NCBI GenBank assembly: GCA_015063085.1
Contig: SUTD01000002.1
Span: forward strand, 62,001 to 126,000
Direction: 5' to 3'
DNA length: 64,000 bases
Origin: Methanocorpusculum parvum
Lineage (GTDB): Archaea > Halobacteriota > Methanomicrobia > Methanomicrobiales > Methanocorpusculaceae
Both the position numbers and the translations under genes were made by a program. The notes under the pieces are model-generated. The model was not told the DNA's origin. It saw only the letters and a list, made by a program, of their open reading frames with translations, and made no database searches. This document shows, in pieces, positions 16,484 to 27,808 of the stretch; position 1 is the stretch's first letter; each line of letters opens with the position of its first letter.

Positions 16484-17047
16484 TTAATGAAGAAGAAAAT
16501 CCCTGAGTTCATGCACCCATTCGGGAGCATTCGATATGAACTCCTGCAGAATCTCTTTCTGCAAATCAACTCCACGAACAGAATCAAGAGCCTTCCCTGT
16601 AACTCTCTTGACCTCCTTTGTCAGAGTTACCGGATAGAGGAAAACACCAGATTCCTCCTCCTTTTTCAACCTGAACAAATTAGAAGATTCCTGATTCAGT
16701 AAATCTTTGCGCATCTTCTTATGCATCTCATTCTTCAGTGTATCAAGTGTAACACCATTGTCAGAATCAAGAACAACCTTTATCGGATACTCACGTTCAT
16801 ATGAGTAGATTATCCACATCTGATGAATACAGGTATTCCGATTCTCATCCTGCTTGAGAAGATATGAGGCGGTACAGCGAGACCGCAGAAAATTCTTGAT
16901 AGTAACACTTTCCCCAGATAAATCAGATGCACCGCAAATCTGACCCCAGTTTTTAGACACAACACTCTGATTCTCGGCGCCCAAAAGCAGTGATAAAAAT
17001 ATCAAATCATGTTGTCCTTCACAAAGGACAACGCGTTTCCTCCTCAT
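16484..17047 (-). CDS. TOPRIM-domain protein of a split OLD-like pair
   Basis: This 187-residue protein opens with a TOPRIM signature: VVLCEGQHDLIFLSLLL gives the catalytic Glu10 and Gly11 with Asp14, and VVLDSDNGVT gives the second acidic motif DxD (residues 94-96). TOPRIM nickase domains in OLD-family defence nucleases normally follow the ATPase domain in one chain; here the domain is a separate gene whose ATG overlaps the ATPase stop (TAATG). The C-terminal part (EVKRVTGKALDSVRGVDLQK) is helical. Probable role: metal-dependent DNA or RNA cleavage regulated by the ATPase. Related two-gene layouts include PARIS and other ATPase/TOPRIM systems; I cannot say which is closest. Confidence 0.7.
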   Translation of the reverse strand: MRRKRVVLCEGQHDLIFLSLLLGAENQSVVSKNWGQICGASDLSGESVTIKNFLRSRCTASYLLKQDENRNTCIHQMWIIYSYEREYPIKVVLDSDNGVTLDTLKNEMHKKMRKDLLNQESSNLFRLKKEEESGVFLYPVTLTKEVKRVTGKALDSVRGVDLQKEILQEFISNAPEWVHELRDFLLH

Positions 17048-18195
17048 TACGTACCTCGTAAATCCATCTTCATCTCAACCATCTCTGCAAATGCTTCAGA
17101 CGGAGTGTAGTTATAGAGTTCATGTTCATCCCTACGTTTTACAATACGGGTAATCTGGATTAAATCCCGCTCCTCCACACTTTCCTCTTCATCATACTGG
17201 GAATAGTTTGCAAATGCCTCAATCAAATCATAACTATGTGTTGTCAGAAACACCTGCACATTCAATTTCCTGGCAAGCAACATCAGATTCTCAACAAAAA
17301 CCTGAAGATATCCGGGATGCATGTGATTCTCCGGTTCCTCTATCAAGAGCACACCATCGCGGCACTGCCGAATTGTTGAGATGAGATTCAGGAGAATACT
17401 AAATCCCGTTCCATGGACAGTATATGGGAGGAAATATGTCTCATCATTCTCACGGTAAACCACCCCATCCTCCATCAGTCTCTCGACATTTGGTAACAGA
17501 TTATGTTCCTGGACAAACTTATCCAACTCAATCAACTCAAGCGGGTCAGCAGTTACCTGATAGAACAATTTATCAGAATTGTTGATGAAACGAATGTTTC
17601 CGACATTTGCATCTACGTTCTCACTAAACCCATATGACATGCGGCAGAACTGATAGAGGTATTCCTGTAAATCTTCAGGACTAATATCAGCTCCAGCAAA
17701 AATACTCTGTGAATCGGCAACAAGTTTCTCAGAGAACCCTTTATAGGGTGTTACATCTATTGATCGAAGATTACTATCCAATACAGAAAATGACACCATC
17801 CGGGATTTTATCAGATAGTCAATAAACTTCTTCTGGTAAAATGGAGATGGCGTGAACTTTGCATTGTGGAATAATACCAGATTTAATTTCTCAACAATCT
17901 TTTCTGAAAAATCAGCGGGCAAATCAGAGAGAGAGCATGAGATGAAAAAGTCATGATTATCAGCTGAAATAGATGCACGTTCAGCATGAACATTAATTCC
18001 ATACCTATTGAGATATCGACCCTGATTGAAGATAGTCGGAACTTCCTTTCCCGTCAAAACTGCATAAATTGCCTCAAGAATTGTGGACTTCCCGGAATTA
18101 TTTCTTCCAATAAGCAGATTAACCTGTTTTGGTTCATACCGCAAATGAGAAATGCCTCGAAAATTATTGATTTCAATCCAAGGAAGCAATGTCAT
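17047..18195 (-). CDS. OLD-like ABC/SMC-type ATPase (AAA15/21)
   Basis: This 382-residue protein begins WIEINNFRGISHLRY, typical of OLD/RecF-like ATPases, then has Walker A at about 30-38 (GRNNSGKST) with ILEAIYAVL. Late in the chain are Walker B (VLLIEEPENHMHPGYLQ) and the switch histidine region (VFLTTHSYDLIEAF). The region in between is helical and divergent, as usual. Such ATPases dimerise on DNA ends or sense invaders and control a TOPRIM nuclease, which here is the next gene. It is complete at its C-terminus and contains no nuclease of its own. The pair has its own AT-rich promoter region upstream. Confidence 0.8.
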   Translation of the reverse strand: MTLLPWIEINNFRGISHLRYEPKQVNLLIGRNNSGKSTILEAIYAVLTGKEVPTIFNQGRYLNRYGINVHAERASISADNHDFFISCSLSDLPADFSEKIVEKLNLVLFHNAKFTPSPFYQKKFIDYLIKSRMVSFSVLDSNLRSIDVTPYKGFSEKLVADSQSIFAGADISPEDLQEYLYQFCRMSYGFSENVDANVGNIRFINNSDKLFYQVTADPLELIELDKFVQEHNLLPNVERLMEDGVVYRENDETYFLPYTVHGTGFSILLNLISTIRQCRDGVLLIEEPENHMHPGYLQVFVENLMLLARKLNVQVFLTTHSYDLIEAFANYSQYDEEESVEERDLIQITRIVKRRDEHELYNYTPSEAFAEMVEMKMDLRGT

Positions 18196-18511
18196 AGATA
18201 TACTATATTTTTGTGCGGGAAGATTAATAATTGTTCTTTCCTGGAATAGGGATCTAAGAGGGACTATGATATTAAGGGAAAGACATTATATCATCCGTAT
18301 ATCTGTACCATATAACCTGATCATAAAACCATCCACCCAAAGATAGGCCACTTCAATAGAATAGATTTCATAGTGAAACATCAACAAGATACTACCACTA
18401 TATTTTTAATTACGACCAATTACAAAATTCCTTTTTATCTATTACTCTATCTTTAGACCATTTATCAAGTCAATCGTAGAGTATATAATTCATGAATATA
18501 AATTACTCATT
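18196..18511. other. AT-rich divergent promoter region
   Basis: No gene is supported. The stretch separates the minus-strand ATPase/TOPRIM pair from the plus-strand 3-TM gene and contains several A/T-rich TATA-like words (ctatatttttaatta near 18398, tatataattcatgaata near 18482), so it probably carries both promoters. Confidence 0.4.
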
Positions 18512-18976
18512 ATGTCAGGGAATAACATTCAGCTATCTCATGATGAGTTATCATCTCTTCACAAGGAGATTGATTTGATTCAAAATTGTATTACAAGAAT
18601 GGCCCAAAATTCATTCATGATAAGAGGATGGGCCATATCTATTGTTGTAATTACCTGGGCGATTATTGGAATTGTAGAGAGTTGGGGGTCTATTGCGTTA
18701 ATTCTGCTTCTTCTCCCGATATTAATGTTCTGGTACTTAGATGCATTTTTTCTTATGACTGAACGCAGATATCGAGATATGTATAAATCCATTCTTGAAA
18801 AACGACTGAAAGATAAGAACTTTGAGAACATGTACGATTTAAATCCAAATAATTTTAAAAATGGATTTATGGATTTGCCAAAATGTATGATTTCAAAAAC
18901 ATTGTGGCCATTTTACCTGTCTTTAATAGTGGTAGTTGTGGTTGCCATAACATTACAGTTCCTTCTCTGTATTTGA
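18512..18976 (+). CDS. small integral membrane protein of a defence-associated type
   Basis: This 154-residue protein has an N-terminal helix (HDELSSLHKEIDLIQNCITR, MAQNSF), then two close TM helices (GWAISIVVITWAIIGIV and IALILLLLPILMFWYLDAFF), a conserved-looking FLMTERRYRDMYKSI segment, a soluble stretch and a third TM helix (FYLSLIVVVVVAITLQFLLC). The layout 'RMA-NSF--+GWAI ... P-++FW-LD-++L--ER-+R-+Y' matches a widespread uncharacterised family that often sits in defence islands and resembles SLATT-type membrane effectors in outline. It may be a pore-type effector for a neighbour, but no partner is clear; genes on both sides run on the other strand. Confidence 0.55.
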   Translation: MSGNNIQLSHDELSSLHKEIDLIQNCITRMAQNSFMIRGWAISIVVITWAIIGIVESWGSIALILLLLPILMFWYLDAFFLMTERRYRDMYKSILEKRLKDKNFENMYDLNPNNFKNGFMDLPKCMISKTLWPFYLSLIVVVVVAITLQFLLCI

Positions 18977-19041
18977 ATTGGAGTTTAGTGGCAACAATTC
19001 TGAGGTAAAATAATTAGGTGATTGATGTCTGACCATCATAA

Positions 19042-21513
19042 TTAGGGAATGGCTGGACAGTTTTTCATCTTTCCCCTGATATTAGATAAATCTTTAATTA
19101 TATTGTCAGGTTCAATATCTAAGATGGGAATCATGTCTTCAATCTTGTAACCGAAATTAGCGTATGAACATTTTGTTTCAAAGCGATTATTGATTAACTT
19201 GAGATTTTCAAGGAAGTTTTGTCTACCAAAATTAATTTCAAGTACTAATTCATGTTTGTCCTTGTAGATATCTACAATTTTATTTTTAATTTCTTCAGCA
19301 TTTTTAGAATCTTGTTCAGTACAACACAGCAATGTGAGAATACGACATTGCATATCCCATGTATCCTTATTAACAAATTCTTTGAGTTTTGTTTCTTCAG
19401 AATACTCCTGGAAGAAGTTACGAACAGATTGGTATGTGTCATTAAGTTGATAAACACCTGATGAATCCTGTTTTGAACAGATAACAAGACATTTGAAATA
19501 GTTGTAGAGGGTATTAAACTCAATTGTTTTCTTATCTCCGGGTAATGAGACAGGATTACTGTTGTATTCTATACCTAAGCACTGTAATGATTTCTGCATA
19601 TTTTCAATGCAAGATGCCGCACACTGTTCTCTTTCTTCATAATTTTTGATTCCTGAGCAAAGCCGCTGCATCTGCGCAAGACTAAGATTCCTGTATCCTT
19701 GCTGGCTTTCCCGAAGAAACCGCGATGCATCTGCATCAGCAATGTGCAATTTGAAATACTCTTCAGCCTTATCAAAACACCCCAAACGGAGATTCAATAA
19801 TCCTAACAGATTGTATGTCTGATTTAATCCGCGCTCTCCAGTTAAGTTGCCTATTTTTTGATAGATATTGATACTTGTCTTACATAAGAATTTGGCTAAT
19901 CCCAGAATCTCTGCATACATATTTTTTCGGTTCGTTGCATAATCATTATCATCTGGGATTGGTGGAAGGTCGGGGAGCATAGTCATAATTATATGTGCCA
20001 TTGATCGAAGTGACGCGGCAAACATTAAACTTTGATCAGGTGACATAGCATCACATGAAACTTGTAATTTCAGTGAATCCAGGTTGTGTGAATATGCCTT
20101 AACTATCTTATCTTTTCCCTGTAATCTATAGAGTTGAGCCACTGCGAGATGTGCTTCTGCCTCCAGATTTGTGTCTCCAGCGGATTTTGAGCGTTCGATG
20201 GCAGTGATACCTTGTTTAATACCCCATTCCATCACTTTACTGTCAGATTTTCTTTGATAAAGTTTGTATGCCAGTTTTGCATCCTGATATGGTGCATTTG
20301 CGGAATCTACATGGTTATTCAAAGACCTCATCAAATACCATGAAGCAATATCGGTAACATCACTATCAAAATACTGCAGTATTTCTGCTGAAACCTTTTT
20401 ATCAATTTCTGGTGTAAGTTTTTCAGACCAGGATTTAATGATAGCTTCAGTATACTCATCGATAGTGTTACTTGTTGTCTTGGTTGCTGATGTTATTGAA
20501 TCAGTAATTTCTTTATTATCAGGACAGATACGAGAGAAGAGAGATTTGGCATACTCTGCAGTATCAGTTTGGATTAAGTATGCTGCATTATTCTTATTCT
20601 GATTACAACAGGTATGAAGTGTGTTGTACATATTATGGTATGATACATCTTTCCATTCCATAAGAGCAGGAGATGTGCTATATTTATTTACTATATCTGA
20701 GAAATATGCAGAATCTGATATGATATTATCACCACCCTTTTCAGAAGATGTATGTTTTATCCAATAAATTTTCTTTGGACAGGATTCTGGTTTTGAGAGA
20801 ACTTTGTATAAATCATATTCATCTCTCAAGCTATGTCCCATAACTACCCATGTATGGTTATGCAGGGCTTCAAGAAGTTTGATTTTGGGAGTTACTGATT
20901 CGCTTTGATGTTGAGAAAGCAATGTTACTATAGACGCTGAGGTATCATTACCGTCAGGGTCACAAAAGGATCCATGCAATTTAATCAGATAACCTTCATG
21001 ATAATCCATAGTTTCTGTCTTATTACCCGTAATATCTTTAGTAAATTTTTCAAAATCATAGTTTTTTATGAGACAATGTGTACTATCAATAGTTGTATTG
21101 TAAAGTATTTTGTAAGCATCTTCAATCAGGCCGTCAAAATTTGTAGATATGACAATGTTTCCCTGCTGAATAAGAGCAGCAAGCAAGTAGTGGATTACAT
21201 TTGGCTCCACAGAATATCCGTCAGCTCTTGCTGTTGCTGTATCTAAAACCTTAAGCGGGAGCAGACCATCTCTTTCTCCCATATGTTTTAACAGAATCTG
21301 GAAGAATAATTCCGGGCGTATTTTCTCTAATATCATATTTCTATCAAAGTATTTCAGAGATGATAATTGTTTAAGGCAATTGTCTTGCGGGAAAAGAGAC
21401 AAATTGGTTGGTGAACTATAGGAGATGCCGGCACCAACAAGGAAGATTACAGGCTTGTTAGAATTGGTTTCATCACACAGACAATTTTTGATATATTCAA
21501 AGTAGGACGACAT
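19042..21513 (-). CDS. SIR2-like NADase fused to TPR repeats
   Basis: This 823-residue protein has an N-terminal SIR2 domain at about residues 1-270: IFLVGAGISYS (nucleotide-binding GAG-S at 27-31), VISTNFDGLIEDAY (N125, D127) and YLIKLHGSF (H180). It then has VVMGHSLRDEY, as in SIR2-like prokaryotic defence proteins. From about residue 380 to the end it is helical with degenerate TPR-like repeats (EAHLAVAQLYRLQGKDKI, TYNLLGLLNLRLGCFDKAEE). SIR2 effectors deplete NAD+ on infection; the TPR part probably senses or oligomerises. No SLOG domain is seen, so it is not a classical ThsA. It lies just downstream of the decayed TIR gene on the same strand. Confidence 0.8.
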   Translation of the reverse strand: MSSYFEYIKNCLCDETNSNKPVIFLVGAGISYSSPTNLSLFPQDNCLKQLSSLKYFDRNMILEKIRPELFFQILLKHMGERDGLLPLKVLDTATARADGYSVEPNVIHYLLAALIQQGNIVISTNFDGLIEDAYKILYNTTIDSTHCLIKNYDFEKFTKDITGNKTETMDYHEGYLIKLHGSFCDPDGNDTSASIVTLLSQHQSESVTPKIKLLEALHNHTWVVMGHSLRDEYDLYKVLSKPESCPKKIYWIKHTSSEKGGDNIISDSAYFSDIVNKYSTSPALMEWKDVSYHNMYNTLHTCCNQNKNNAAYLIQTDTAEYAKSLFSRICPDNKEITDSITSATKTTSNTIDEYTEAIIKSWSEKLTPEIDKKVSAEILQYFDSDVTDIASWYLMRSLNNHVDSANAPYQDAKLAYKLYQRKSDSKVMEWGIKQGITAIERSKSAGDTNLEAEAHLAVAQLYRLQGKDKIVKAYSHNLDSLKLQVSCDAMSPDQSLMFAASLRSMAHIIMTMLPDLPPIPDDNDYATNRKNMYAEILGLAKFLCKTSINIYQKIGNLTGERGLNQTYNLLGLLNLRLGCFDKAEEYFKLHIADADASRFLRESQQGYRNLSLAQMQRLCSGIKNYEEREQCAASCIENMQKSLQCLGIEYNSNPVSLPGDKKTIEFNTLYNYFKCLVICSKQDSSGVYQLNDTYQSVRNFFQEYSEETKLKEFVNKDTWDMQCRILTLLCCTEQDSKNAEEIKNKIVDIYKDKHELVLEINFGRQNFLENLKLINNRFETKCSYANFGYKIEDMIPILDIEPDNIIKDLSNIRGKMKNCPAIP

Positions 21514-21629
21514 AATTACTAATAAATAGTAATTATAGATATATCTTGTGCCCTTGCCAACTTGTCTAATCTCTGTAATATATTCTAGAAGTAACTCGTA
21601 CTATTTGAAATATTGAATAAAATAGGTAT

Positions 21630-22036
21630 CTATCCTAATTGTTTAGTTGCGTTCACAACAGACTTTATGTTCCATTTACGATAATATCAGCCGCTTCTTT
21701 CACTCGTGTTGATGTTTTCTCATAACCTCAGGGTTCAATTGGTTTTTTTTTAATCCATTTTTTGCCAAATCAATCTCAATATTAATCCACTTGCTATATG
21801 TAGAATAAACTCCTGCTAATATTAGAACAACAGAAGCATGTTTCATTTGCTCATGTATTGCCCATCTCAATTTATTATCTGAACCAGTGACATGAAGTGG
21901 ATTATCTTTTGGAATAGAATAGTCCTCGTAAGAAAAGTCACAATCATTATCCAGAAGGTTAATTAACTTCTTATACGAATCTGAGTAAGCCCAAGAATAG
22001 CTAATAAATAAATTATAAGTTTCTTGGAGTGGACAT
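21630..22036 (-). pseudogene. decayed TIR-like (ThsB/MTH538-type) gene
   Basis: A good ribosome site (GGAG) and ATG at 22036 give MSTPR, but the frame then stops. One base further the frame reads TYNLFISYSWAYSDSYKKL, then YSIPKDNPL, WAIHEQMKHASVVLILAGVY and STYSKWINIEIDLAKNG. This is a clear ThsB-type TIR-like core with the conserved Glu of W-x-x-x-E. After a run of nine A the frame shifts to KPIEP, a TGA where Trp is expected, and GYEKTSTRVKEAADIIVN. A further one-base loss leads to WNIKSVVNATKQLG and the stop at 21630. So there are two or three indels (the A-run one may include a small deletion) and one nonsense change. It starts 23 bases after the caspase gene, evidently the same operon. 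Confidence 0.75.
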
Positions 22037-22058
22037 TCCTATATCTCCAATAGATATA

Positions 22059-23012
22059 TTAAATTCTGTTATTTTTTACCAATTTCCAGTAATGTTTACC
22101 AAGTGCTGTTAGGACACATGATTTGCTATTTATAGCAGCATAATACATATGTATCTCATCTTTTGGAATAAGAAGATTCACTCTATTGTAACGCTGAAGA
22201 GTTGAAAAGATTTTTGTATTCTTTTCAACTTTTATTTCTGAAGTAGGTTCATAAGAGGGATCCAATTGATATTCTGAATCTGGATCTGCAAAGTATTCTG
22301 TAAGCCTATATAATTCCTGAAGAGTTATTGGAGGTGTATTTTTTCTCAGTGATACAAAACTATGTACATTAGTTTTAAACATTGGTCTTTGATCCCATGG
22401 ACCAAGTGCCTGATCAATATATGCATACACACTTCCTGGAGTGACATCCCCAACAAGATTCATAGCACCACCATTTAATGCCTCAACTAACAATGAGGTA
22501 AACACCCCTTTCCCTCCTTTTTCCATTGAATATTCTTCAGGTTTACACGCGGTAAGGATGGTTGTTCCCTCATTTATCAATGAGAAATCAGTATTACATG
22601 CTATATTTCCAGCAGTACCAGCATGACAGCAATCAAGAATAATAATTTTATTCCTTGCTTTGGAGGTGGCTGCAATTGTCAAAATATCATGAATTGCCAA
22701 CCCATTATCACCACGTTTTACATCAGATGTTAGAAGATATCCCCCTGTGTTTTCAACATACCCATGCCCTGAAAAATATAATAATGTTGAATCTACTGCC
22801 CCATCAAAGAGCTTTTTTATTTTATCTTTCAACTCTTCTTTGGATAATTGAGTACCAGGATTATCAGCTATATATAATTCTGTTGAAAAGTTTGGTGTGC
22901 CATCACCATTTCTGGAGAGTACATTGTACATTGCTGAGGCATCATTTCCACACCCAAACAAACTATTGATATGTTCATAATAGTTAATACCAATGCACAA
23001 CGCTTTTTTCAT
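22059..23012 (-). CDS. caspase-like (C14) protease
   Basis: This 317-residue protein has a p20-like catalytic domain: KALCIGINYYEHINSLFGC, FSGHGYVEN (His83) and IIILDCCHAGTAGN (Cys129 as nucleophile), and then ILTACKPEEYSMEKGGKGVF, LLVEALNGGA. The C-terminal 110 residues form a separate domain seen in many archaeal and bacterial caspase-family proteins (STLQRYNRVNLLIPKD, MYYAAINSKSCVLTALGKHY). It lies between an NLR-like gene (127 bases upstream) and the decayed TIR gene (23 bases downstream). A caspase paired with a TIR protein has been reported, as I recall it, as type IV Thoeris, in which a TIR-made nucleotide activates the protease; here that input appears broken. Confidence 0.85.
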   Translation of the reverse strand: MKKALCIGINYYEHINSLFGCGNDASAMYNVLSRNGDGTPNFSTELYIADNPGTQLSKEELKDKIKKLFDGAVDSTLLYFSGHGYVENTGGYLLTSDVKRGDNGLAIHDILTIAATSKARNKIIILDCCHAGTAGNIACNTDFSLINEGTTILTACKPEEYSMEKGGKGVFTSLLVEALNGGAMNLVGDVTPGSVYAYIDQALGPWDQRPMFKTNVHSFVSLRKNTPPITLQELYRLTEYFADPDSEYQLDPSYEPTSEIKVEKNTKIFSTLQRYNRVNLLIPKDEIHMYYAAINSKSCVLTALGKHYWKLVKNNRI

Positions 23013-23138
23013 ATAATTAATAATATCATCATAATAATATATCTTTAACTATTCTATGTTAATATCTCATAAGTATTGTATTAAAAATTATTTAATATAT
23101 TTCTCATTTCAATCGCATCTAATTATTTATATTGGTAA

Positions 23139-26100
23139 TTAATTTGTGATTTGAGATAGACGTTCCCTACATTCAGAAATATGTTTATCCAAGTATGTTT
23201 TATGATAACAACTAGAATTATTAAATTCAGTTTGATTATCAAACATACAAATAGCTTCAGAATAGAACTCTTTTGCCTTTTCAAGCATAAATCTTCTGAA
23301 ATAGAAATCACCCATATTAATTAATGTATATGTGAGATTATATGCATCATATCCCTTTGGATAACATTTTTCTAAATCCCTCCTAAGATTTAATGATTCT
23401 GAATACAGGTTTTCAATAATACTATAATCTTTTTGGAATATATCATTATAGTCATCATATAGATTTGCTAAATTAACAAATGTATCTGCAAGTTTCATAT
23501 AGTGAGATGTAAGCCCAATTTCCTTAAAATTATTCCTGATATTAAGGGCACATAGATACATTTTTTCAGCATTGTCATACTCACCGCGTAATTTCGATAA
23601 TCTTGCTAAGTTATAGTATGTATTTGCTAGACTCTCCTGATAATCATAGTTGTTTTTATCTCTGGACAGAAGAATTTTCTTCGCATTTAAAGCTAGTTCA
23701 TAACTTGACTGCACATCATCTAATTTACAATCTATATTAGGTTGGCTATTTTGATCAATTACTGATTGATATAATAACCCATAATTATTACAGAGCATCG
23801 AATAAAGATTAAGTTCCTCATCCATACAATTGATTTTTGAAGTATGAGTTATAAAATAACTAATTTCATCAAAATTCAATAGAACTTTTGCTTTATCATA
23901 ATTATCTTTAGAATGTACATAATCTTCTCCCATCCAGTACAGTCTACCACAATTAATGAGATTTTTAATAATATTGATTCTATTATTATATGGATTTTTA
24001 TTTAGAATAACCAATGCATTTTTATATAATCTCAATGCTTTGTCCCCCTCCCCAATTAATTCAAATATTCTTCCTCTTTTCTCCTGAATTGATGCAAAAT
24101 AAATATCTGATTCAAGTTCATTTTCACTAACAAGTGATTTTAAAAGCTTTTTTGCTTTTTCAAATTTTTTATTAGCTTGATGGAAATCATTCAATTCTAA
24201 GTGTAGATTTCCACAATGATATAAGAGATCAATAGTATTTCTCATACTCAATGTCTTAAACCTTAATAATGTATTACAACAGTCAATTATCCTTAATAAC
24301 TCACGTCGATTAGTATATTCATCAGAGTATGTTATAACTTTCTCCACATTTATTGAAGTGTTTAAACCAAGTAATATCTCATAATATAATATCTCAATAT
24401 TAGCAATTCTCTTCATTTCCCCTTCTCTTTCTGTAGACAATATTCTGTAGTAATCAAGACAAATATTATAATTAGTTTTTACTTCATCATCGTCAAACTT
24501 GAGACCATTAATATAATCTACAATTTGATGATATGAAACACACCATGACTTTCCATCTTTATTTCTTTCAACAAAACCTTTCTCTGAAAGAGATGAAAGT
24601 AATTCATCTACATTTCCATAAATTGTAATATTAGAACATGCTCTGCGTAAGACCTCTTGGTTGATATTAAAGAAAATATCATAATCAAATAGAGACAAGA
24701 GACGTAAAAATCTAATCTCATCTTCTGTAAGAATCAATTTGATTATCCTTTTCCAAATCTCCTGACTTCCATCTTTAGCATAGATTTCCTTAGAATTATG
24801 CTCCAACTCACAAATCATATTTTTATAGGTTTGTTTATCTAAGAGAGAGGGTAAATTTCTAACCATCAAGTAAGAAAAGATAGGATAACCACCTGCTATT
24901 TGTTGAATTATATCGATATTATCTTGTACCAATGTTGGATTAATACCCAATATTCGAGCAAAATATAGTAAAAGCTCCTCTACTTCTTCAATAGACGTAA
25001 CTTCTTTAGAGTATGCTTGTGAATTAACCAGATTATTTTTCTTTGATGTGGCTATTATTGTTATATCTTTATTAAGTAATCTATACACAGATTTATCTGC
25101 TAAGTCTATATCGTCTATTAATAATAAAATATTATTTTTATTACATATATTGGCAATCTGATCCATCCTATCAGCATCCGTACCCATTATATTATTATCA
25201 GATGATAATGTGTTAAGTATATGATCTAGTGTTAACTTTTCAGACTGCCCCATCCTAATATGTCTTATCTTGTCATTCCTATATCCCGACTTTGAGATAT
25301 ATGCTGAATATCTTGAGAATATAATCGCTTTATCTCCAGTTTCTAATATTCGCAATAAAGTTAATACTTCAGCAAGGGTTGTTTTACCTATACCTCCAGG
25401 ACCCCATAACAGTAATGACTTTTCAGTATCAATAATCTTATAAAGTTTTTTGAGTTCTGAATGATTACCAACAAAATTTTTAAACTTAAAATTTGGATTT
25501 GTATCTGGATGTGCATATCTATCCAAGATATCTTTCACTAAATTCTTGAATATTCGATCCACATTATCTTGGTTACATCTACCTAATGTCTCATTTCCTA
25601 TCTCAACCATCAATTGTGATAGTTTTGGCATATTATTGAATGTCAGAGAAATTTCATTCTCATCAAATACTATTGAGTTTGAATTTTTCCCAACCTCAGC
25701 AACAATATCTTCCCTCTCTTGAATACTCAGTTTATCATAAGTGTATCCATACTTCCATTTAGTACAACAATCCAATTTATTATTGTTTAGAATATCATAT
25801 ATTTTCCACAGATTGCCAAATAAAAATATTAAATGCGGGCAATTAATGCATCTTCCCAGCCTCAATTCACAATGAGTATATGATATTTTTCCATTACAAT
25901 CATCAGTTCCTTCATGATAATAACATCTCTCAGCAAATTTTATGTTTTCATTACCTTCCTTCTTTTCTCTTTCATTTAGACATAATTCAGAACATGAATC
26001 TGATACATGGCATTCATCAATCAACGACCCGTATTGTGGTGTTAATAAATAGATAATATAATCAGCATTGATTATGCCATAATCCCCATCATGAAAAATG

Positions 26101-26234
26101 AATTTTTGAGGTGACGTACTGCTCGCAAAATATTCCATTGCACGAGGAGTTACTGATTGTTGTAAACGAGTTAATATTTTTGACCGTACATAATCAAGAT
26201 CTTTGAAGGTAGAAGAAAGAAAGATATCTAACAT
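23139..26234 (-). CDS. NLR-like STAND ATPase: DUF4062, NB-ARC and TPR
   Basis: This 1031-residue protein has an N-terminal DUF4062 domain (MLDIFLSSTFKDLDYVRSKI; TIR-like fold) with an inserted cysteine-rich patch (CHVSDSCSELC, CYYHEGTDDC, HCELRLGRCINCP) that may bind zinc. Then comes a STAND ATPase: Walker A at 278-286 (GPGGIGKTT) and Walker B at about 368-377 (ILLLIDDIDLAD), with a winged-helix region following (YHQIVDYI). From about residue 600 the rest is TPR repeats (SLANTYYNLARLSKLRGEYD, NAEKMYLCALNIRN), the usual ligand-sensing part. The layout matches prokaryotic NLR-type immune sensors. First gene of an apparent operon with the caspase-like protease and the decayed TIR gene, so it may recruit or activate the caspase. 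Confidence 0.85.
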   Translation of the reverse strand: MLDIFLSSTFKDLDYVRSKILTRLQQSVTPRAMEYFASSTSPQKFIFHDGDYGIINADYIIYLLTPQYGSLIDECHVSDSCSELCLNEREKKEGNENIKFAERCYYHEGTDDCNGKISYTHCELRLGRCINCPHLIFLFGNLWKIYDILNNNKLDCCTKWKYGYTYDKLSIQEREDIVAEVGKNSNSIVFDENEISLTFNNMPKLSQLMVEIGNETLGRCNQDNVDRIFKNLVKDILDRYAHPDTNPNFKFKNFVGNHSELKKLYKIIDTEKSLLLWGPGGIGKTTLAEVLTLLRILETGDKAIIFSRYSAYISKSGYRNDKIRHIRMGQSEKLTLDHILNTLSSDNNIMGTDADRMDQIANICNKNNILLLIDDIDLADKSVYRLLNKDITIIATSKKNNLVNSQAYSKEVTSIEEVEELLLYFARILGINPTLVQDNIDIIQQIAGGYPIFSYLMVRNLPSLLDKQTYKNMICELEHNSKEIYAKDGSQEIWKRIIKLILTEDEIRFLRLLSLFDYDIFFNINQEVLRRACSNITIYGNVDELLSSLSEKGFVERNKDGKSWCVSYHQIVDYINGLKFDDDEVKTNYNICLDYYRILSTEREGEMKRIANIEILYYEILLGLNTSINVEKVITYSDEYTNRRELLRIIDCCNTLLRFKTLSMRNTIDLLYHCGNLHLELNDFHQANKKFEKAKKLLKSLVSENELESDIYFASIQEKRGRIFELIGEGDKALRLYKNALVILNKNPYNNRINIIKNLINCGRLYWMGEDYVHSKDNYDKAKVLLNFDEISYFITHTSKINCMDEELNLYSMLCNNYGLLYQSVIDQNSQPNIDCKLDDVQSSYELALNAKKILLSRDKNNYDYQESLANTYYNLARLSKLRGEYDNAEKMYLCALNIRNNFKEIGLTSHYMKLADTFVNLANLYDDYNDIFQKDYSIIENLYSESLNLRRDLEKCYPKGYDAYNLTYTLINMGDFYFRRFMLEKAKEFYSEAICMFDNQTEFNNSSCYHKTYLDKHISECRERLSQITN

Positions 26235-26514
26235 AGTGTTAATTAGACTTTTTGATGATATAAATTATTTGTATAATATAGTACATAACATCTTCATATT
26301 TCTAAATCATTGAATATTCAAATATCAATAACGAATAATAACCATGTCAATTTTTTGAATATCATAATGGTACTCCATAAAACAACTACCTTATTTAATG
26401 TTGAGACAGTGTCAGTAAATATCAAAGACACATTTAAACAAATAATCTATTTCCAGGCATATACAAATATCTAAAATAAAAGAGAGGAGGATAGTGCAGA
26501 GAGCCACAGAAAAC

Positions 26515-26700
26515 CTACCGCACCCTCCTGACAACCGTATCAGACACAGCCAGCCCGTGAAACAGCAAAGCACTCTTCACTGACGCCTTCGAACACCCAA
26601 GCCGCCGTGCAATCATCTGCGCCGAGCCTTCCTCCATCACCAGAACCGCCAGCTTATGCCGGTCAGCAAGCTCCGGAACATTCCGCCACGACGGAATCAT
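26515..26700 (-). CDS. small helix-turn-helix protein
   Basis: This 61-residue protein has one HTH (EEGSAQMIARRLGCSKASVK, SALLFHG) like the DNA-binding part of resolvase- or homeodomain-type proteins. Its ATG overlaps the stop of the preceding gene (ATGA at 26697-26700), so it is translated with the operon running from 28967 down to 26515. It is the last gene; the AT-rich 280 bases to its left separate the operon from the NLR gene. Possible role: DNA-binding accessory of an integrated element. Confidence 0.6.
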   Translation of the reverse strand: MIPSWRNVPELADRHKLAVLVMEEGSAQMIARRLGCSKASVKSALLFHGLAVSDTVVRRVR

Positions 26701-27200
26701 ACACCCTCCGATGGAGAAGAAATCTCCTCAATCACATAATCCATCAGCCGCTCCTCCTTCTCCGTCAGCCGGGAAAACACGTGCGACGGAACAACCTTCG
26801 ATAACTCAGTCGAATTCACCACTTCATACTTCTGAATCTCCGAAGAACCCAGAATATCCCGTGCCTCAAGATACAAAGCCCGCCTGCCGATAATCTTCTC
26901 CGCATCACTTGCCTTCACGTGAACCAGAGAATCAAACAGCTCAGAACTATAAGCAGCCACATCCGCCACCTTCACCTTCGTATAACTCCGGTACTTCCCG
27001 CACAGAGCATACTTCTCCGATGTCAGCCCTTTATCCAGAATGTCTGCTACCTGGTGCTTATACTCAACCTCCACAAAGTCAAGCATCCACCGAAGCGCCT
27101 CTCTAAATTCAAAAAGCCATACCGCCCGTTCAAACCCAGAATTCACCGGACACGGGTGTGCATCCTGGATAATATCCAGATACTCCTGAGGTGTTTTCAT
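26697..27200 (-). CDS. hypothetical helical protein of the element operon
   Basis: This 167-residue protein begins MKTPQEYLDIIQDAHPCPVN and is largely helical and charged (EFREALRWMLDFVEVEYKHQ, KEERLMDYVIEEISS). No signal peptide, membrane segment or motif is recognised. It overlaps both neighbours by four bases: its ATG with the stop of the HNH gene and its stop with the ATG of the HTH gene. GC content and arginine/serine usage match the rest of the operon rather than the AT-rich island to the left. Confidence 0.6.
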   Translation of the reverse strand: MKTPQEYLDIIQDAHPCPVNSGFERAVWLFEFREALRWMLDFVEVEYKHQVADILDKGLTSEKYALCGKYRSYTKVKVADVAAYSSELFDSLVHVKASDAEKIIGRRALYLEARDILGSSEIQKYEVVNSTELSKVVPSHVFSRLTEKEERLMDYVIEEISSPSEGV

Positions 27201-27808
27201 ACTTTTTCCTCCTTCTTCATGCTCAACTCATCTTCCAGAATCCTTCGGACTACCGCCTGCTGTACTCCGTACTTCGTACGAATGGTATTAATCGAAATTC
27301 CTCTGGAAAAATCCGCAACAATCTTCTTCCGGACTTCTCCCGGGACAGCCTCTATCGGCACATCCGACATATACGACTGATTATGAATAATCCGGGAAAT
27401 TACTGAATGATTACAGTTATAATCGCGGGAGAGCTGCATTACCGTCGCTCCTTCTGCATACTTCTTCCGCATCTCCTGAACCTGCGCGAAGGTGAACTTT
27501 GCATTCGTCAAAAGCTGGTTTTCTGCAGCAGTTACCAGCCGCAGATTGCAGAGCCGGTTATCCTTCTTATTTCCGTTTATGTGGTCTAATTGGAAACCGA
27601 CCGGAATCGGACCGTTTGCAGCAACCCAGATAACATGGGACAGCAGAAAACGGCTGACTGTGATATACCCTCTGCTGTTCTCAGAACCTACCAGATTGCC
27701 TTTCTTTGCAGTCGAATACACCTGTCCGGTATCCAGAGACGGAACCCACTCTCCGGAGCGGATTTTATCCAGGATATACACATCCGACATACTACAGAGA
27801 GTTACCAT
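27197..27808 (-). CDS. HNH endonuclease with C-terminal HTH domains
   Basis: This 203-residue protein has an HNH_3-type nuclease core at about residues 40-100: SRFLLSHVIWVAANGPIPVG, FQLDHINGNKKDNRLCNLRL, VTAAENQ (D-H, N, N-L-R). Two HTH-like segments follow (MRKKYAEGATVMQLSRDYNC with NHSVISRII; SINTIRTKYGVQQAVVRRIL). This is the layout of phage or element homing-type HNH nucleases. Start at 27808 (MVTLCSMSDVY) has GGGGGAG close upstream and overlaps the previous gene by 17 bases; MSDVY at 27790 is the alternative. Expected to cut DNA at a specific site; target unknown. Confidence 0.8.
   Translation of the reverse strand: MVTLCSMSDVYILDKIRSGEWVPSLDTGQVYSTAKKGNLVGSENSRGYITVSRFLLSHVIWVAANGPIPVGFQLDHINGNKKDNRLCNLRLVTAAENQLLTNAKFTFAQVQEMRKKYAEGATVMQLSRDYNCNHSVISRIIHNQSYMSDVPIEAVPGEVRKKIVADFSRGISINTIRTKYGVQQAVVRRILEDELSMKKEEKV

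Follow-up and report, generated by a model that had tools for sequence, protein, structure and literature searches.

A decayed TIR gene next to a caspase-like gene in Methanocorpusculum parvum, very probably the TIR partner lost from a type IV Thoeris-like pair

Introduction

A TIR-like reading frame that is broken several times lies in this stretch of Methanocorpusculum parvum DNA, and the question is whether it is a dead gene, a gene misread in sequencing or a gene that can be switched on, and what it once belonged to. The window (the whole stretch of 64,000 nt that was analysed) comes from the genome of a gut methanogen, an assembly of 1.4 Mb in 36 contigs that is 79.8% complete, and carries the gene for formylmethanofuran-tetrahydromethanopterin formyltransferase. 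The locus very probably holds what is left of the TIR member of a caspase-TIR pair of the type IV Thoeris-like kind, a gene that would have decayed once and then probably been transferred as part of a block of DNA.

Two relatives from the same genus are used throughout for comparison. Methanocorpusculum UBA424 has an intact copy of the pair. Methanocorpusculum RGIG1678 (contig JAFQBW010000014.1, isolate label Goat_Cecum-2) is a separate assembly, and it and the genome of the window count as different species by GTDB, each GTDB species being represented by one genome. Coordinates of the features are in Table 1.

Table 1. Features of the TIR pseudogene, its neighbours and the block shared with RGIG1678 (window coordinates).
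Feature	Coordinates	Strand	Evidence or remark
SIR2-domain protein, 823 aa, downstream	19042..21513	-	one other relative in the phylum sample, which stands alone
Decayed ThsB-type TIR gene (pseudogene)	21630..22036	-	start codon ATG at 22036; old frame ends in the stop codon at 21632-21630
Third remnant, ...KWNIKSVVNATKQLG	21633..21686	-	third frame, frame change near 21677; TIR profile E 3.6e-3
Second remnant, GYEKTSTRVKEAADIIVNGT	21668..21727	-	second frame, just after the TGA; TIR profile E 1.4e-4
Main TIR open stretch, 112 codons, TYNLFISYSWAYSDSYKKL ... WINIEIDLAKNGLKK	21703..22038	-	frame differs from that of the ATG
In-frame TGA	21728..21730	-	Trp at this position in the intact UBA424 gene
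A9 run (A8 in RGIG1678)	21743..21751	-	next to it 13 bases are missing relative to the intact gene of UBA424
Caspase-like protease, intact, 317 aa, presumed effector	22059..23012	-	Peptidase_C14 1.8e-18
DUF4062 (TIR-like)-NTPase-TPR protein, 1031 aa, upstream	23139..26234	-	beside the caspase here and in RGIG1678, in no other species examined
Near-identical block, window and RGIG1678	18300..26236	.	99.9%, 9 differences in 7937 aligned columns

Results and Discussion

Structure and identity of the TIR pseudogene

The ATG at 22036-22034 has a GGAG motif ahead of it and opens a frame that reads MSTPRNL, 7 codons in all, and then meets a TAA. The main open stretch lies in a different frame and spans most of the TIR fold, the Glu of WINIEIDLA included, and no start codon (ATG, GTG or TTG) is found in this frame before the first TIR strand, TYNLFISYSW. 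The second frame runs past the A9 run, through the TGA and into GYEKTSTRVKEAADIIV, and the third frame brings KWNIKSVVNATKQLG to its end at the TAG (21632-21630). Around the A-run, the change of frame is accompanied by a gap relative to the intact UBA424 gene, of 13 bases here and 14 in RGIG1678. A preliminary description of this DNA had put a lesion at the A9 run, and a frame change is indeed located there, but with a gap of this size beside it the run alone does not make up the whole lesion. The same description proposed a comparison with intact homologues; alignment with the UBA424 TIR gene brings out the gap, the frame breaks and the TGA in place of Trp that it had reported.

The main piece passes the curated cut-off of the Pfam ThsB_TIR model (PF08937), with an E-value of 1.5e-12 and 48.2 bits against a threshold of 21.2. 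A custom TIR profile was built from 45 intact TIRs that adjoin caspase genes, and with it the TIR body matches profile positions 46-137 (E 2.6e-42). The second piece matches positions 146-163 (E 1.4e-4) and the third positions 163-176 (E 3.6e-3), these two E-values being for a search space of one sequence, to which the order of the pieces adds weight. The three pieces are colinear, and the next-best piece of the region on both strands has an E-value of 0.037. In a local alignment of DNA, the tail scores 26 against UBA424, where shuffled sequences have a mean of 15.9 and the best of 2000 shuffles reaches 29. With the best shuffle above the observed score, it is the profile matches, and the order in which they fall, that identify the tail. 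A sequence search of the PDB with the TIRs gives MTH538 and one TIR entry.

These results bear out the TIR-like pseudogene of the preliminary description, which lies on the minus strand, with pieces in three frames that match a ThsB-type TIR profile in order; the four peptides it had named do occur on that strand in different frames and in the correct order. Its statement that the gene is hidden from ORF calling is true of the complete TIR; a listed ORF of 56 aa at 21700-21870, however, begins at an internal TTG and matches ThsB_TIR (8.8e-7).

A scan of the window's own genome with ThsB_TIR and TIR_2 returned the pseudogene as its sole match; no other ThsB_TIR is present in this assembly, which is 79.8% complete, so that the missing fifth may hold another. 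In RGIG1678, three successive TIR_2 matches with open frames of 644-763 aa are found on another contig (C62, 3191-7596), and these three genes were likewise not found in the window's genome at its 79.8% completeness.

The caspase-like gene and its TIR partners

The pseudogene directly follows the caspase-like gene on the same strand. This context, with the TIR as one half of a defence pair and a caspase as its neighbour, was absent from the preliminary description. A scan of 84,980 GTDB genomes yielded 373 relatives of the caspase from many phyla, and the best 80 of the 373 were analysed. The catalytic dyad, His83 and Cys129, is His and Cys in 80 of the 80 sequences, that of the window included. 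Among 87 near-invariant columns the window caspase deviates at 4, against a median of 1, and 75 of the 80 sequences deviate at fewer. This is a weak hint of relaxed constraint, divergence of the lineage being equally possible. With the model for EACC1-associated caspases (NF047832) it scores 97.2 bits, below the curated cut-off of 140, and the only PDB entries that a sequence search with the caspases recovers are metacaspases.

A TIR gene is adjacent to the caspase in all of these best 80 loci, and none of the 80 has a nearest open TIR stretch shorter than 109 aa apart from the locus of RGIG1678, which has the same pseudogene. The caspase of UBA424 is 58% identical and is followed 12 bases on by an intact TIR gene of 136 aa, the pair being located between housekeeping genes. 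In one genome of the same phylum (G044) the TIR gene is just before the caspase, and in one of the same order (G377) TIR genes are on both sides. The latter locus (L015, 964-2961) has a single caspase flanked by two different TIR genes, and several bacterial loci among the 80 likewise combine one caspase with two TIR genes, a pattern suggestive of two-TIR versions of the caspase system.

Neighbouring genes and a possible second activator

The DUF4062 and SIR2 proteins that flank the pair were considered as partners of the caspase and rejected, since among the 79 other loci only the sister copy in RGIG1678 has either of them next to its caspase. The SIR2 protein has one other relative in the phylum sample, at 40% identity, and that one stands alone. 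The most natural reading of the two proteins is as independent defence modules that share an island.

Two further observations concern genes beyond the SIR2 gene. An AAA ATPase of 382 aa (matches to AriA, AbiLi and PDC-M38A models) overlaps the gene of a 187-aa partner without a Pfam match at 16484-18195, possibly a PARIS- or OLD-like two-gene system. Between this ATPase and the SIR2 gene, but on the other strand, a protein of 154 aa is encoded at 18512-18976 that matches the PADLOC candidate family PDC-M50A (3.2e-38).

The flanking genes bear on a different reading of the locus, in which the caspase is still in use but has been rewired to another activator, for example the DUF4062 TIR-like protein, so that loss of the TIR gene would carry no cost. 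The caspase is open with its dyad retained, and DUF4062, a TIR-like NADase domain (PMC13174449), is encoded just upstream on the same strand. However, DUF4062 proteins with a described activity break NAD+ down to ADP-ribose and do not make a cyclic signal, and to this are added the lack of DUF4062 or SIR2 neighbours at caspase loci other than the sister copy and the deviating caspase columns, with their weak hint of relaxed constraint. Rewiring is therefore considered unlikely; if true, it would represent an archaeal caspase pathway with a replaced activator.

The same broken copy in a second species

A 600-base region around the pseudogene was compared with 25 genomes of the genus, and only RGIG1678 and the intact UBA424 relative, at 63% identity, were found. 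The RGIG1678 copy has the same frame break at the start, the short gap, the TGA and the third frame break, and within the pseudogene the length of the A-run is the sole difference between the two species.

That the gene is in fact intact and its frame breaks are errors of sequencing or assembly is very improbable. In favour of this explanation, two of the frame changes fall at short A-runs and the TIR body lacks none of its conserved residues, but a TGA and a 13-base gap are atypical of errors in runs, and the contig of another species, assembled separately, shares the lesions. Several lesions common to separate assemblies of two species are thus biological, and the possibility of error is already refuted except for the A9/A8 difference, which itself may be a sequencing error. 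Least probable of all is a phase-variable run that turns the TIR on and off, for although the run does differ in length between the species, slippage of homopolymers is expected in neutral sequence, both copies lack an in-frame start and have the TGA and the third frame break as fixed lesions, and neither A9 nor A8 gives one open frame, as a change of run length alone would in a phase-variable gene. The locus is therefore a case of ordinary gene decay, not of sequencing error or a genetic switch, and the preliminary description, which had leaned toward decay with sequencing error or phase variation as possible contributors, is supported by the lesions common to RGIG1678.

In its aligned stretch the TIR body retains every residue that is at least 90% conserved in the 45 intact relatives, which, as judged from the sequence, indicates that the decay is recent. 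The presence of all these residues would also fit a TIR body that is retained as a fragment for some use.

History of the shared block

Diverged DNA borders the block of approximately 8 kb that carries the dead TIR gene, at least at one end. The flank at 26.5-27.7 kb is mostly 60-90% identical between the window and RGIG1678, and the other flank, at 17-18.3 kb, is 93-100% identical. In the simplest account, the block probably moved between species at a recent date, when its TIR gene was already dead, and the broken TIR appears to have been transferred in that state. A search of plasmid and phage collections with a 7.2-kb block, at megablast sensitivity, gave no match. The sharp drop in identity (60-90%, 26500-27800) occurs at an HNH endonuclease gene (27197-27808) and may be a recombination edge.

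In the decay scenario, the TIR gene would have decayed once, after which the 8-kb block would have been exchanged between Methanocorpusculum species or passed to both from one source. The A-run would then have changed in length by one.

Comparison with known systems

The main piece covers positions 1-86 of the 100 of the Thoeris ThsB TIR family (PF08937), and what sets it apart from members of this family is the damage to its start and its C-terminal part, in the form of frame changes, a gap and a stop codon. There is some resemblance to Swarozyc and the DUF4062 TIR-like NADases (PMC13174449), as the upstream neighbour has a DUF4062 domain. This neighbour, however, also carries NTPase and TPR parts; it is a separate protein and does not belong to the caspase-TIR pair.

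The closest likeness is to type IV Thoeris, in which, as summarised in PMC12847820 citing Rousset et al. 2025, the TIR makes N7-cADPR, a signal that turns on a caspase-like protease and so leads to the degradation of cell proteins. The likeness is one of layout as described. In a working system of this kind the TIR would sense infection and convert NAD+ to a cyclic ADP-ribose signal (N7-cADPR in type IV, according to that summary); the signal would activate the caspase, which is then expected to degrade cell proteins. Here the signal maker would be dead and the caspase orphaned, and it is probably inactive in this pathway. Among the titles and abstracts listed in a literature search, a Thoeris pseudogene of this kind was not found. 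The kind of thing is known, and the archaeal example and the apparent transfer in a broken state are modestly interesting.

As in type IV Thoeris, TIR and caspase-like genes are adjacent as a two-gene unit, here the caspase and then the TIR remnant; the TIR is of the ThsB type, the catalytic His and Cys of the protease are kept, and a TIR gene accompanies the caspase throughout the related loci. The difference is that the TIR is a pseudogene with several lesions common to RGIG1678, where type IV has a functional TIR. Broken in this way, the locus is a remnant and not a working system. The genus Methanocorpusculum thus has a type IV Thoeris-like caspase-TIR pair that is intact in one species and has its TIR broken in two, and in its broken form the pair offers a natural experiment on how a caspase effector fares after the loss of its signal maker.
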